The position numbers and the translations under genes are program-made. Positions 28,519-32,755 of a stretch of DNA of 64,000 nucleotides are shown one piece after another (position 1 is the stretch's first letter; every line of letters begins with the position of its first letter). Origin of the DNA: Nocardioides cavernaquae (GTDB lineage Bacteria > Actinomycetota > Actinomycetes > Propionibacteriales > Nocardioidaceae). Location of the stretch: contig NZ_QYRP01000002.1 in NCBI RefSeq assembly GCF_003600895.1, positions 3,100,001 through 3,164,000 on the forward strand, given 5' to 3'. Below the pieces are notes generated by a model, which ran no database searches, was not told the origin of the DNA, and saw only the letters and a list, made by a program, of their open reading frames with translations.

Positions 28519-29139
28519 TCAGACGAGCGACGGCACCCTGAGGTGGGCCATCACCAGCTCGAACTCGGCCGCGTCGATCACGTCGACACCGGCATCACGT
28601 ACGCCGCGCTCCCGGATCGCCCAGGCCTGCTCACGGCTGGCCGCCATCGTCTCCATGCTGGCGAACGACGTGGTCGCGCAGGCGCGCTGGGTGTCCCGGT
28701 TGACCAGGAGGCTGGCACTGCAGAAGCCCGGGAGCTCGCGCAGCATCGGCAGCAGGACGTCGCGATAGATCCCGATGCCGTGGTCGAGGTCGGTCTGGTT
28801 CGTGCGGAGCCAGACGGCACGAGCACAGGAGCCGGGAGCGGACAGGTGGTCACGGTGCATGGCCGCGATCTCCCACTCCTCGACCTGGCGCTTGCCGCCC
28901 ATGATCTCGGTGGCGCGGGAGCGAACCGCGGCGAGGTCTTCGAAGCTTCCGTGGAGGGCTTCCTCGTCCTGCCACGAGGTCGTCGCGATGCAGGTGCCCT
29001 GCTCGCGGTCGACCATGAGCGACAGGCCGAGGCAGCCGTCCATGTGCTGGAGCATCGGGTAGACGTCGTCGCGGACGTAGGCGATGCCCGCGTCGAGCTG
29101 GGACGGCTCTCCCTGAATGGTGGTGGAGCGTGCGAACAC
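28519..29139 (-). CDS. Tandem ABM-like (dimeric alpha-beta barrel) protein
   Basis: 206 residues from the GTG at 29139, which has GGGAGA at a good distance. Two ferredoxin-like halves resemble each other: the first with AGIAYVRDDVYPMLQHMDGCLGLSL and ATTSWQDEEAL, the second with HGIGIYRDVLLPMLRELPGF and ATTSFASMETMAASREQAW. This is the pattern of antibiotic-biosynthesis-monooxygenase-type domains fused in tandem. Function unknown; such proteins can be heme-degrading, oxygenases or structural. It is divergent from the ECF sigma gene. Confidence 0.65.
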   Translation of the reverse strand: MFARSTTIQGEPSQLDAGIAYVRDDVYPMLQHMDGCLGLSLMVDREQGTCIATTSWQDEEALHGSFEDLAAVRSRATEIMGGKRQVEEWEIAAMHRDHLSAPGSCARAVWLRTNQTDLDHGIGIYRDVLLPMLRELPGFCSASLLVNRDTQRACATTSFASMETMAASREQAWAIRERGVRDAGVDVIDAAEFELVMAHLRVPSLV

Positions 29140-29275
29140 GTTGGTCTCCCTCGATCGGGGGTGGCGCCCCGGCGGCGCCGCCGCTCCTCCCACACTCCGC
29201 CCGACTCACGGGTAACACAAGAGCGCGGCAGCACGGGTCTGGAGCACTCGACCCCAGAAAGTCTGACCAGAAAGT

Positions 29276-29307
29276 TGCAAGGTCCCGGGACGCCCGCGCC
29301 TCCCACT
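29276..29307 (+). promoter_or_regulatory. ECF-type promoter candidate P1 of the membrane-anchored sigma gene
   Basis: TGCAAGG (29276-29282), 17 bases, CTCCCACT (29300-29307). The same two blocks with the same 17-base spacing recur before the sortase and surface-protein genes. It lies 84 bases before the sigma start, so the sigma factor may activate its own gene. Confidence 0.7.
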
Positions 29308-29378
29308 GGTGAATGCCTGCAACCTCCGGGAGGAAGTGATGATGTCGTGGAACGCCGGAACCGCGTCGTGCACAGCCG

Positions 29379-29384
29379 TAGGAT
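29379..29384 (+). promoter_or_regulatory. Candidate second, start-proximal promoter of the sigma gene
   Basis: TAGGAT ends six bases before the GTG at 29391, fitting leaderless spacing; GGAAC occurs 17 bases upstream of it (29357-29361). It could supply basal sigma independent of the TGCAAGG promoter. Weak evidence. Confidence 0.3.
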
Positions 29385-29390
29385 CCGATC

Positions 29391-31079
29391 GTGACTGCCC
29401 CCTCCGGGCCCCTCGGACCCACCGACGCCGTGCTGGTCGAGCGCGTCCTGGCGGCCGATCGGGAGGCATTCGCGCAGGTCTACGACCGCTACGGCGGCAA
29501 GCTCTTCGACTTCGCCTACTCCATGCTGCGGCATCGCGAGGACGCCTCGGATGCGGTGGCGGACAGCTTCATCCTCTTCGCGGAACGACTCCCCCAGCTG
29601 CGCGAACCCGACCGTCTGCGGCCGTGGCTCTACGCGATCGTGCGCAGCGAGTGCCTCCGGCGGCTGAAGGCCCGCAAGCGGGTCGCCTACGGCGGCGAGG
29701 AGCAGCTGATCGAGATGGCTGACGACGCGATCTCCCCCGACCAGTACGCCGAGCAGTCAGCGCTGCGCGACCTCGTCTGGGACGCGGCCGCCGGTCTGGC
29801 CGAGCGTGACCGGGCACTGCTCGACCTTCACCTGCGCCAGGGCCTCGAGGGCGCAGAGCTGGGCGAGGCGATGGGCACGACCGCAGCCAACGCCTACGTG
29901 ATGCTCAACCGGCTGCGCGCGCAGGTCGAGCGGTCCCTCGGCGCCCTGCTGATCGCGCGCCTCGGCCGCGACGACTGCCCTGATCTCTCCGAGCTGTTGC
30001 GCGACTGGGACGGCTCCTTCTCCGTGCTGGTGCGCAAGCGGGTCGCACGTCACGTCGACAACTGCTCCGTCTGCGCCGTCCTGCGGCGCACGATGGTCAG
30101 CCCGTGGGCGCTGCTTGCCTCGGTGCCCGTCTTCGTCGCACCCGCTGCCCTGCGCGACCGGGTCCTGGAGACCCGGCTCGTTGCCCACACGGCGCCGGCC
30201 GACGGAAGCGCCGCGGCCGGGGTCCCGGCTGCGGGCCCGGACGCCACCGCGCGACGGGGCGGATGGCTCTCGGATGCACGGTTCCCGGCACTCGTCGGTG
30301 CACTCGGCATCCTGCTGCTCCTCGGCGGAGTGATCCGTTGGGCCTGGGCCGAGGACGCCCTGCCCGGGCTCGCCCCGGCGCCGTCGCTCTCCGCCCAGGG
30401 CCTCGCCGTCGAGCCGACGCTCTTCCCGAAGGGCACGCCCACTGGGGCAGCCTCGACGAGCGCAACGCCCACGCCGTCCGCCACCTCGATCGCACCGGCC
30501 CCGGCAGTGCTGACCGTCTCGACCGGTTCGATCGACCTCGGGCGCCGCGCCACCAGCGGATCGGTCGTCGTCGGCAACGACGGAGGCGAGCCGCTGTCGT
30601 GGACCGCCACGACCTCCGTCGACTGGATCAGCGTCGCGCCTGCCTCGGGCGAGCTCGACGGCGGCGCGACGGCCACCCTCGCGATCACCGCCGACCGGAG
30701 CCGTCTGCCCGAGGGCAGGTCCACCGGGTCCGTCGTGATCTCGGGTGCCGACCAGAGCCGCACCGTGACGATCACCGCCACCGAGGAGCACAACCCCGTC
30801 GTGGGCGCACCGACGACCGGCGCCAACCCCTCCTGCCAGGTGCCCGTCACGGCCTCCGTCTCCGACGAGAGCGGTCTCGACTCGGTCACGCTCTTCTGGT
30901 CCGGGCCGAGCGGCAAGGGCCAGGTCGCGATGAGCGGCTCGGGCAGCCGGTGGTCGGCCGAGATCAGTCCCGTCAACGTGGGCGGCAACATCACGATGTA
31001 CGTCGTCGCGCGCGACACCCGCGGCAACACGGCCACCGGTCCATCGCGCACGATCTACGTGAATCCCTGCCCTGGCTGA
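29391..31079 (+). CDS. Membrane-anchored ECF sigma factor with zinc motif and BACON/Ig-like ectodomain
   Basis: 562 residues. Residues 10-95 are sigma region 2 (YDRYGGKLFDFAYSMLRHRE, RPWLYAIVRSECLRRL), 125-185 sigma region 4 (LAERDRALLDLHLRQGLEGA). Then H221-x3-C225-x2-C228 resembles the zinc-binding centre of anti-sigma factors. One transmembrane helix lies at about 298-316. The outside part has a Pro/Ser/Thr linker (320-372), a BACON-like beta-sandwich (about 390-463, DWISVAPASGELDGGATATL) and a second beta domain with C482 and C560. It is thus sigma, tether and sensor in one chain. How it would reach RNA polymerase (release by proteolysis, or action while tethered) is unknown. GTG start; an in-frame TAG nine bases upstream fixes it. 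Sortase and surface-protein genes follow. Confidence 0.85.
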   Translation: MTAPSGPLGPTDAVLVERVLAADREAFAQVYDRYGGKLFDFAYSMLRHREDASDAVADSFILFAERLPQLREPDRLRPWLYAIVRSECLRRLKARKRVAYGGEEQLIEMADDAISPDQYAEQSALRDLVWDAAAGLAERDRALLDLHLRQGLEGAELGEAMGTTAANAYVMLNRLRAQVERSLGALLIARLGRDDCPDLSELLRDWDGSFSVLVRKRVARHVDNCSVCAVLRRTMVSPWALLASVPVFVAPAALRDRVLETRLVAHTAPADGSAAAGVPAAGPDATARRGGWLSDARFPALVGALGILLLLGGVIRWAWAEDALPGLAPAPSLSAQGLAVEPTLFPKGTPTGAASTSATPTPSATSIAPAPAVLTVSTGSIDLGRRATSGSVVVGNDGGEPLSWTATTSVDWISVAPASGELDGGATATLAITADRSRLPEGRSTGSVVISGADQSRTVTITATEEHNPVVGAPTTGANPSCQVPVTASVSDESGLDSVTLFWSGPSGKGQVAMSGSGSRWSAEISPVNVGGNITMYVVARDTRGNTATGPSRTIYVNPCPG

Positions 31080-31095
31080 GGATTCGCCGAGTTAC

Positions 31096-31127
31096 TGCAA
31101 GGTTGAGGGGCGCATCGCACTCCTACT
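31096..31127 (+). promoter_or_regulatory. ECF-type promoter candidate of the sortase gene
   Basis: TGCAAGG (31096-31102), 17 bases, CTCCTACT (31120-31127), 17 bases after the sigma stop codon and 31 bases before the sortase ATG. Identical blocks and spacing to the sites at 29276 and 31850. A small CGTGA/TCACG dyad follows directly. Confidence 0.78.
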
Positions 31128-31158
31128 CGTGAACCCTCACGAGAACGGGAGAACCGCG

Positions 31159-31809
31159 ATGCGCCCCTCAACTGTCACCCTGCGTCACCAAGTCCAGCTG
31201 GCCCTGTCGGCCGCCGTCTTCCTGGTCGGCATCGGCATCGTCCTGCTGGTCTTCTTCCTGGCCGGGCTGAGCCGCTCCGGCTCCCCCGGCATCCTCGGCT
31301 CGCCTGCAGCAGTCGCCCCGGGTGCGGCAGCCGACCCCGTCGTACTCCGGTCGCCGGAGGCGGCCCGCGCCGTCGGGCTTCCGACGGAGGTCGTGATCCC
31401 GGCGATCGGGGTGCGCGAGCGACTCCATCCCGTCGGGCTCAAGCCGGACGGCGCGATGCAGACGCCCGCGTCCGGCGACGCCGGCTGGTTCAGCCGCGGC
31501 CCGCGTCCTGGTGCACCCGGTCCAGCGGTCGTCCTGGCCCACGTGCACGGCCGCTACGGCGACGACGTCTTCACCCGGCTGCACGAGCTCCGAGCGGGCG
31601 ACCGGGTGACTGTCCGGCGCACGGACGGCACCTCGACCTTCGTCGTCACCGGCCAGGAGCTGGTGGCCAAGGAGGCCCTTCCCTACGACCGGATCTGGAA
31701 CGACACCGACGACCCGGTCCTCCGTCTGATCACGTGCGGCGGGACGCCCGACCCGGCCACCGGCCGCTACCCGGCCAACACGATCGTCTACGCCCGACTG
31801 GCCCGCTGA
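31159..31809 (+). CDS. Sortase, class F-like
   Basis: 216 residues from the ATG at 31159; GGGAG lies about eight bases upstream, and the in-frame GTG at 31129 lies at the promoter, so it is rejected. N-terminal membrane helix (ALSAAVFLVGIGIVLLVFFL, about 14-36), extracytoplasmic catalytic domain with His128 in LAHVHG, Cys193 in RLITCGG and a C-terminal Arg (NTIVYAR). These are the catalytic triad residues of sortases. Length and ITCGG pattern fit class F, widespread in actinobacteria. It should cleave a sorting signal and attach the protein to the envelope; the neighbouring Pro-rich protein is the obvious substrate candidate. Confidence 0.9.
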   Translation: MRPSTVTLRHQVQLALSAAVFLVGIGIVLLVFFLAGLSRSGSPGILGSPAAVAPGAAADPVVLRSPEAARAVGLPTEVVIPAIGVRERLHPVGLKPDGAMQTPASGDAGWFSRGPRPGAPGPAVVLAHVHGRYGDDVFTRLHELRAGDRVTVRRTDGTSTFVVTGQELVAKEALPYDRIWNDTDDPVLRLITCGGTPDPATGRYPANTIVYARLAR

Positions 31810-31849
31810 CCTGCGGAAACAACTTCCGAAAAAACTTTCCGGAAAAAGG

Positions 31850-31881
31850 TGCAAGGACTCGAGGGGCCTGTTGCTCCTACT
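31850..31881 (+). promoter_or_regulatory. ECF-type promoter candidate of the Pro-rich surface-protein gene
   Basis: TGCAAGG (31850-31856), 17 bases, CTCCTACT (31874-31881), 40 bases before the ATG at 31922. Third copy of the shared motif. Just upstream (31812-31848) is an A/T-richer stretch with TTCCG/CGGAA dyads that may end sortase transcription. Confidence 0.78.
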
Positions 31882-31921
31882 TCCGAAGCCACCAAACCAG
31901 CCCCCTCAAGGAGAACCAGCC

Positions 31922-32509
31922 ATGAAGACCATGATCCGCAACCTCGCCGTCGCCGCCCCGCTCGCCTTCGCCACCCTGACGATGGCTCCGGTCCCCGCCT
32001 TCGCCACCGACCCGGTGATCGTCCTCCCGCCGTCCGAGCCCGACCCGGCCCCGATGGACATCGCGATCCCGAAGCCCGAGCCGGTCCAGCCGCAGGGTCC
32101 CGACCAGGTCGCGCAGCCGGAGCCCGGCCCGGTCCAGCCCGACGGCCCGGACGAGATCGCCCAGCCCGAGCCCGGCCCCGTGCAGCCTGACGGCCCCGAC
32201 GACATCGCCCAGCCCGAGCCCGGCCCGGTCCAGCCCGACGGCCCGGACGACCTGACCAACCCGGAGCCGGAGCCGACCCACCCGACGGACCCGTCCGGCG
32301 ACGACAGCACCGACGAGGCGCCCAGCAGCGCCGACGAGCCGACCTTCGAGCAGGTGGACGTCCCCACCCGGATCGACACCGGCGCCGCAGCCGTCGACAG
32401 CAACGACAACCAGGACCTGGCCCTCGCGTTCCTGCTCGCCGGTGGCGCGCTGGTCACCGTCTCCGGCGCCGCCTTCGTGGCCCGCAACCGGGCGCGTCGT
32501 ACCTCCTGA
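31922..32509 (+). CDS. Pro-rich repeat surface protein with non-canonical sorting signal
   Basis: 195 residues from the ATG at 31922 (AAGGAG nine bases upstream). Signal peptide 1-28 (RNLAVAAPLAFATLTMAPVP, AFA cleavage). Residues 51-112 contain three identical-length 16-residue repeats of the type QPEPGPVQPDGPDDIA plus a degenerate first copy: an acidic, extended stalk. Residues 120-148 are Asp/Ser/Thr rich. The end has RIDTG (150-154), a hydrophobic helix (about 167-187) and the basic tail RNRARR: the layout of a sortase substrate, but with RIDTG instead of LPxTG or LAxTG. Without cleavage it would remain a membrane-anchored protein. Function unknown; adjacent to the sortase and preceded by the same promoter motif. 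Confidence 0.82.
   Translation: MKTMIRNLAVAAPLAFATLTMAPVPAFATDPVIVLPPSEPDPAPMDIAIPKPEPVQPQGPDQVAQPEPGPVQPDGPDEIAQPEPGPVQPDGPDDIAQPEPGPVQPDGPDDLTNPEPEPTHPTDPSGDDSTDEAPSSADEPTFEQVDVPTRIDTGAAAVDSNDNQDLALAFLLAGGALVTVSGAAFVARNRARRTS
32114..32257 (+). repeat. 48-base coding tandem repeat (three units)
   Basis: Three consecutive 48-base units encode residues 65-112 of the Pro-rich surface protein (unit QPEPGPVQPDGPD followed by three variable residues). Units differ at synonymous and a few coding positions. In-frame length allows copy-number change without loss of the reading frame. Confidence 0.8.
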
Positions 32510-32532
32510 GGCACGCCACCTCGACACCGCAC

Positions 32533-32577
32533 CCGAAGCCCCGCGCCCCAGCAAACCCCTGGGGCGCGGGGCTTCGG
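32533..32577 (+). terminator. Strong hairpin terminator of the sortase/surface-protein unit
   Basis: Perfect 19-base arms (CCGAAGCCCCGCGCCCCAG and complement) with a seven-base loop CAAACCC, 24 bases after the surface-protein stop codon. No T-run follows, but the stem is very stable. Confidence 0.85.
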
Positions 32578-32626: not shown

Positions 32627-32755
32627 ATGGGTGACAAGTCACCGCGTCAGACAGCGTCGAAGAAGTCCGCGAAGTCCATCAAGGAAAAGCGTGCCGAGAA
32701 GCGTGACAAGGGGACCACGGTGAGCGGCATGGAGTCGCTCACCAAGAAGCGCTGA
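32627..32755 (+). CDS. Small basic conserved actinobacterial protein (42 residues)
   Basis: ATG at 32627 with GGGAG six bases upstream. The product opens GDKSPRQTASKKSAKSIKEK and ends MESLTKKR, with 14 Lys/Arg and no hydrophobic segment. I recall close relatives (GDKSP...SKKSGKSIKEKR) scattered through actinobacteria as uncharacterised small proteins; this is from memory. The charge suggests nucleic-acid or ribosome binding, which is inference. Its last 17 bases overlap the end of the convergent HIT gene. Confidence 0.7.
   Translation: MGDKSPRQTASKKSAKSIKEKRAEKRDKGTTVSGMESLTKKR

Follow-up and report, generated by a model that had tools for sequence, protein, structure and literature searches.

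Does a sigma factor held in the membrane, when its gene stands beside those of a sortase and of a small proline-rich (Pro-rich) protein, govern these two genes together with its own, and what would such a regulon do? This question is raised by a locus in a 64,000-nucleotide stretch of the Nocardioides cavernaquae genome (assembly GCF_003600895.1, contig NZ_QYRP01000002.1, positions 3,100,001 to 3,164,000; hereafter the window, in which all coordinates are given). The locus consists of three plus-strand genes (29391-32509) located between a HIT gene and a gene encoding an antibiotic biosynthesis monooxygenase (ABM) domain. Comparison of sequences makes it likely that they form a three-gene regulon, in which a membrane sigma factor of the extracytoplasmic function (ECF) type drives its own gene, that of a class F-like sortase and that of a Pro-rich protein that the sortase probably anchors. 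The features of the cassette are as follows.

29276..29307, plus strand: ECF-type promoter site of the sigma factor gene, TGCAAGG-N17-CTCCCACT; exact match; position weight matrix (PWM) score 18.5, p=0.0001
29391..31079, plus strand: sigma factor gene, 562 amino acids (Pfam, TIGR02937, alignments, hydropathy, AlphaFold model)
31096..31127, plus strand: ECF-type promoter site of the sortase gene; exact match; PWM score 27.7, p400 printed as 0.0000
31159..31809, plus strand: class F-like sortase gene, 216 amino acids (PF04203, NF033748, alignment, structure model)
31850..31881, plus strand: ECF-type promoter site of the surface-protein gene; exact match; A-rich DNA 5' of the site at 31829-31849
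31922..32509, plus strand: Pro-rich surface protein gene, 195 amino acids (ortholog alignment, hydropathy); likely sortase substrate
32533..32577, plus strand: perfect 19-bp hairpin with a 7-nt loop at the end of the cassette; candidate terminator, no T-run

A shared promoter motif in the window and in related genomes

A preliminary description of this DNA had proposed that one bipartite motif, with exactly 17 bases between its blocks, precedes the three genes. All three sites (29276-29307, 31096-31127 and 31850-31881) match TGCAAGG-N17-CTCCYACT exactly, for a mean of 0.00 in 100 shuffles of the window, and the remainder of the 3.47 Mb genome contains no exact TGCAAGG/CTCCYACT pair at any spacing from 15 to 19. 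At N17 with up to two mismatches, the genome contains seven matches, namely the three exact ones, none with one mismatch and four with two (reversed control, 18). The first block taken alone is not clearly enriched: TGCAAGG occurs eight times in the window against 4.69 expected, a number reached by 10 of 100 shuffles, and five of its copies, not two as had been written, lack the second block. The distances from motif to start codon, announced as 31-84 bases, are 83 bases for the sigma factor gene (GTG at 29391), 31 for the sortase gene (ATG at 31159) and 40 for the Pro-rich gene (ATG at 31922); a GTG at 31129 is an unlikely start for the sortase because it is too near the promoter. The site at 29276..29307 predicts autoregulation of the sigma factor gene.

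Sites from relatives refine the consensus to approximately gAAAa(c)-TGCAAG(G/A)T-N14/15-GCTCCTAC, with A-rich stretches that prolong the first block on its 5' side. Such A-rich DNA tends to recur at two places, immediately 5' of this block and some 12 nt farther upstream, and we infer that it acts like an UP element; the site of the window sortase gene lacks this part. When the refined, strict pattern TGCAAGRT-N14/15-GCTCCYAC was scanned in 215 genomes of the genus, 43 sites were found in 17 of them (reversed control, eight sites). The DNA following all 43 was read: one site precedes a sigma factor gene, nine a sortase gene, 12 a Pro-rich gene, 19 a gene for a secreted protein of about 635 amino acids (one of these genes being cut by a contig end), one an RTX-like gene and one a gene remnant. 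The window's own genome contains no match to the strict pattern, from which its sites depart slightly. A looser pattern gave 33 matches in 18 of 149 genomes of the family, 28 of them before regulon genes, four elsewhere and one unread; among these assignments, that of L110 is based on the layout of signal peptide and helix only and that of L127, as RTX-like, was made by eye. Start codons in relatives were picked by a crude script score.

The secreted proteins of about 635 amino acids, often encoded in tandem, constitute the commonest motif target in relatives of the same genus (19/43 sites; L045:7240-11447, L079, L085, L095, L100 and others). Their C-terminus is of the ...DG(L/V/I)V(A/V)(A/T)K type without a terminal membrane helix, and the two members scanned have no significant Pfam family. 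The motif also lies upstream of secreted proteins with RTX-like repeats, recognised by eye, in L080 and L127, and in L089 it precedes a short open frame that keeps just both ends of an RTX-like gene. The regulon had been called self-contained: this holds in the window's genome only; relatives also have this promoter before unlinked genes for secreted proteins.

The distribution of the sigma factor follows that of the motif. Searched for irrespective of the motif, the full-length protein was found in five of 37 genomes of the genus. The strict motif is present in four of these five and in none of the 32 sigma-less genomes (Fisher p 7.6e-5); the remaining one is the genome of the window, in which the motif occurs in the form first described. 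All 17 same-genus genomes carrying the strict motif encode the sigma factor, two of them in two pieces. In a set of 28 genomes with motif hits, 25 encode it, and the three that do not (G082, G115 and G273) have no match before a regulon gene. The full protein is absent from the 21 genomes searched in the same order outside the family.

A matrix was then trained on 33 sites located before Pro-rich and secreted-protein genes, with the sites of the window and those of all sigma factor and sortase genes excluded, which also applies to the PWM score of 29276..29307 given above. Scanning 170 nt upstream of sigma factor genes, with 10,000 background stretches for comparison, it finds a site at p<0.01 in 31 of 32 loci; as one genome is represented by two entries, this corresponds to 30 of 31 distinct genomes. 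At p<=0.001, it does so in 26 of the 32 loci. It also finds a site before the neighbouring sortase gene in all 21 loci that have one (p400<=0.01). The preliminary description had staked its reading of the locus as a sigma/sortase/surface-protein regulon on orthologous loci, where an absent or differently spaced motif would speak against it; motif, sigma factor and surface genes co-occur in these loci across species and across genera, which supports that reading.

Several observations weigh against it. By raw count the looser family pattern (33 matches) does not exceed its reversed control (about 51), so that the evidence it brings is one of placement only. The 28 genomes of the set had been selected by their motif hits, and counts made in genomes that are related to one another overstate the number of independent events. 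In G208 and G060, the sigma factor match consists of two pieces in different frames and may be broken or misassembled; Ns are present in the G060 locus, whereas the overlapping pieces of G208 (L152/L155) contain none and may reflect a frameshift or an assembly error. No significant site precedes the sigma factor gene of G216 (p=0.025), and a same-strand sortase gene is missing from the stretch read in 10 of 31 sigma factor loci. The proteins of about 635 amino acids have no C-terminal helix and are unlikely to be sortase substrates.

Sortase and candidate sorting signal

The sortase matches PF04203 (71.9 bits), and at E<=0.001 its structure model has 117 matching PDB chains, of which the 50 listed are all sortases. 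It has an N-terminal membrane anchor, and H128 and C193 (in the sequence LITC) are invariant in 50 aligned sequences. The class F family NF033748 is the best NCBIfam match, far above the other sortase classes, yet the scores (144.7 bits for the window sortase, next to 141.1 and 135.6 bits) remain below its cut-off of 166; the enzyme is therefore called class F-like. The strand following the cysteine reads YP(D/A)NT(I/V)V, with an invariant N207, and the alignment contains no invariant arginine after C193. N207 is probably located about where class A sortases carry their catalytic arginine, and the catalytic set of the window sortase may differ.

The Pro-rich protein has no family in Pfam or NCBIfam scans. 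It comprises a signal peptide-like N-terminus, acidic Pro-rich repeats, the sequence VPTRIDTG, a membrane helix and an RNRARR tail, a layout that alignment and hydropathy identify as that of sortase substrates (signal peptide, C-terminal motif, helix, basic tail). The sequence P-x-R-[IV]-[DH]-[AT]-G is found in 30 distinct proteins among 32 of the Pro-rich class (29 of them with D); downstream of it, these proteins have a variable segment, then a hydrophobic helix and a tail that is mostly basic. The search expression demanded R[IV][DH][ATS]G close to the protein end and thereby imposed the invariance of R and G; it left free the proline located before this stretch, which is nevertheless invariant in all 30. 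No LPXTG or LAXTG pentapeptide is present in the surface proteins, and the conserved sequence before the C-terminal helix is a probable sorting signal. Its degenerate DNA form has nine matches in the window's genome (reversed control, five), of which only the one in the window protein lies at a C-terminus with a helix. The GVDTG sorting domain NF058571 is, by its name and one weak match, a similar short C-terminal signal ending in D-[TA]-G; the window protein does not match it at E<=1, and the best of five orthologs reaches 13.8 bits for a cut-off of 29.

Linkage, the shared promoter and the conservation of the signal suggest that the sortase anchors the Pro-rich protein. Alternatively, the sortase might act on other proteins, the Pro-rich protein being simply membrane-anchored and its RIDAG stretch having another role. 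Such a view is in keeping with the absence of LPXTG from the Pro-rich protein, with a class F score below the cut-off, with the expected arginine not being obvious in the last strand of the sortase, and with two proteins of the Pro-rich class (L110 and L124) in which the stretch is lacking. We hold it to be unlikely, as a tripartite C-terminus resembling sorting signals (motif, helix, basic tail) occurs in 30/32 of these proteins, the Pro-rich gene adjoins the sortase gene under the same promoter, and no second such C-terminus was found among the nine degenerate-pattern matches in the genome.

Membrane-bound sigma factor, proposed mechanism and known systems

The sigma factor belongs to the ECF group (group 4): TIGR02937 matches residues 25-181 with 70.7 bits (cut-off 42.9), in agreement with the helices of the model. 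The sigma2 (about 12-100) and sigma4 (about 116-191) domains are followed by a membrane helix (298-320), delineated by hydropathy and the AlphaFold model, by a low-complexity linker and by an outer part made of a BACON immunoglobulin-like (Ig-like) domain (374-465) and a second Ig-like domain (about 469-561). Pfam reports Sigma70_r2 and BACON_2/BACON, a putative binding domain, and no named carbohydrate module; the second Ig-like domain is without an assigned family. Between sigma4 and the helix, an HxxxCxxC segment resembles the zinc fingers of anti-sigma factors. Its residues H221, C225 and C228 are invariant in 64 sequences, as are C482 and C560 of the second Ig-like domain; the Pfam scan reported no zinc-finger family on this segment. 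The AlphaFold model has a mean predicted local distance difference test (pLDDT) value of 72 and a predicted template modelling (pTM) score of 0.38; sigma2 and both outer domains are modelled with confidence, sigma4 with middling confidence (blocks of about 54-71), and the linker and zinc-finger region poorly. With its zinc-finger-like segment, membrane helix and extracytoplasmic extension, the protein has the sigma-fused-to-anti-sigma architecture of the ECF48/52/53 kind. Six database proteins (P0001-P0006) are 82-98% identical to it, which indicates that the sigma factor gene circulates in close relatives.

The system might operate as follows. The fused anti-sigma-like zinc finger and the membrane helix would hold the sigma factor at the membrane, and the two extracytoplasmic Ig-like domains would receive an envelope signal. 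Proteolysis, as in the ECF52 and IutY precedents, would then free the sigma part. Once free, the latter would recognise TGCAAG(G/A)-N17-CTCCTAC, a step for which comparative support is strong, probably aided by A-rich upstream DNA, and would transcribe its own gene, the sortase gene and the Pro-rich gene. Cleavage by the sortase would probably take place at P-x-R-[IV]-D-[AT]-G of the Pro-rich protein and lead to its anchoring to the wall. In relatives, the regulon of the same sigma factor would be larger, with unlinked genes for secreted proteins among its members.

A further step, a sense-and-sort circuit, is speculative and rather doubtful: the sigma factor would monitor anchoring, with an Ig domain like that of the PapD chaperone binding unanchored protein, and its release would adjust sortase and substrates. 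The Ig-like outer domain resembles pilus-chaperone folds, among others, and such a modelled fold would be compatible with the sensing of an unanchored surface protein. If this were true, class F-like sortases could be assigned a function, together with a sorting signal and a regulator of their own.

Control by the membrane sigma factor itself can be questioned, as the motif could be the site of a separate activator or of another sigma factor, the membrane protein being just one gene of the regulon; other sigma-like matches do exist in every genome searched. It is very unlikely, given that two blocks at near-fixed spacing precede unrelated genes, that the genomes with the motif and those with the sigma factor coincide (17/17, and strict motif in 0/32 sigma-less genomes of the genus) and that the sigma factor gene itself has the site.

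Equally improbable is that the system is the characterised ECF52 factor SCO4117 of Streptomyces coelicolor under another name. Proteolytic activation and positive autoregulation have been proposed for SCO4117 in the cited passages (PMC5826349, PMC8999054), where it is described, like ECF48 and ECF53, as a sigma factor fused to a zinc finger, a membrane helix, a Pro-rich linker and an extracytoplasmic domain, an architecture shared with the window protein. According to these passages, however, SCO4117 has a carbohydrate-binding module and a pleiotropic regulon of developmental and antibiotic genes, whereas the window protein carries BACON/Ig-like domains, not the smart00776 module, and would have a dedicated sortase/surface-protein regulon. 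The signature given there for SCO4117, CSGYN-17-SRHA, itself putative, is not matched by TGCAAGG-N17-CTCCTAC when compared by eye; the word sortase is absent from the SCO4117 paper, and the full window protein occurs in 0/21 genomes of the same order outside the family. Finally, that the three sites are a coincidence of chance or composition, which the lack of clear enrichment of TGCAAGG alone might suggest, has a negligible probability in view of the shuffles, the uniqueness of the pair in the genome and its conservation before the same genes in other species.

A few other systems share parts of this organisation. As reported in a passage of PMC8999054, IutY (ECF243) of Pseudomonas putida likewise combines sigma and anti-sigma parts in one membrane polypeptide and is freed by Prc and RseP; unlike the window protein, it serves aerobactin/iron signalling, and that passage mentions no sortase. 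In Bacteroidetes, an ECF sigma factor governs a machinery for surface export, of which a sortase is part; in the cited passages (PMC7712824, PMC8545088), this system differs by its two-component input and by its PorU sortase, which attaches anionic lipopolysaccharide. The window sortase is akin to class F sortases (the Propionibacterium acnes enzyme; SrtF1-4) in that class F is its best NCBIfam match; unlike for those enzymes, the genome here names a regulator and candidate substrates. In Streptomyces, the ECF sigma factor BldN controls chaplins, surface proteins anchored by class E sortases. The BldN system differs from the present one by a separate anti-sigma factor, by LAXTG substrates and by a sortase encoded outside one cassette.

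The preliminary description knew of no described system of this composition. The fused sigma architecture has in fact been described (ECF48/52/53, SCO4117), whereas no description of its coupling to a class F-like sortase and non-LPXTG substrates was found; open-licence PubMed Central literature yielded none for the combination of such a sigma factor, a class F-like sortase, non-LPXTG substrates and a sharp promoter. The architecture is a known, ECF52-like one, and the regulon and the sorting signal look new. In the cited passages of a 2026 paper (PMC13251363), the physiological roles of class F sortases are stated to be unknown, and the deletion of all four class F genes (SrtF1-4) of Actinoplanes missouriensis caused no phenotypic change. 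The role of class F enzymes becomes testable, since a regulator can be named from the locus, candidate substrates can be listed across a genome by means of the promoter code, and a non-LPXTG sequence is at hand as a candidate sorting signal. For the fused sigma/anti-sigma type, the locus provides an unusually small and sharply defined regulon, down to three genes, that would allow the path from signal through proteolysis to output to be followed in full.

Neighbourhood and origin of the cassette

The cassette had been said to interrupt a conserved thrS-HIT-pgsA order. Among 30 HIT loci, each read over about +/-1.5 kb only, nine have thrS and pgsA on opposite sides of HIT, and in the 29 loci other than the window's own no sigma factor or sortase gene was found near HIT within that distance. 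The HIT-pgsA interval of the window also holds two other genes, that of the ABM-domain protein and one that is inositol-phosphatase-like; a gene of the second kind is located between HIT and pgsA in four of the HIT loci just mentioned as well (L172, L174, L175 and L190). In a tree of 28 sigma factors, from which G060, G068 and G208 were left out, the window protein clusters with sigma factors from two further genera of this family, one being Aeromicrobium and the other probably Marmoricola (support 100/100), and stands apart from the 14 other proteins of its own genus. Taken with the interrupted gene order, this grouping suggests that the cassette was probably acquired horizontally.

The ABM-domain gene (28519-29193, minus strand) is divergent from the sigma factor gene. 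At the other end, the hairpin had been presented as a 19-bp terminator; its inverted repeat is exact, but it has no T-run and is not among the results of a scan for T-run terminators. On its 3' side, a 42-amino-acid Lys-rich open frame (MGDKSPRQTASKKSAKSIKEKRAEKRDKGTT...) extends from 32627 to 32755 on the plus strand.

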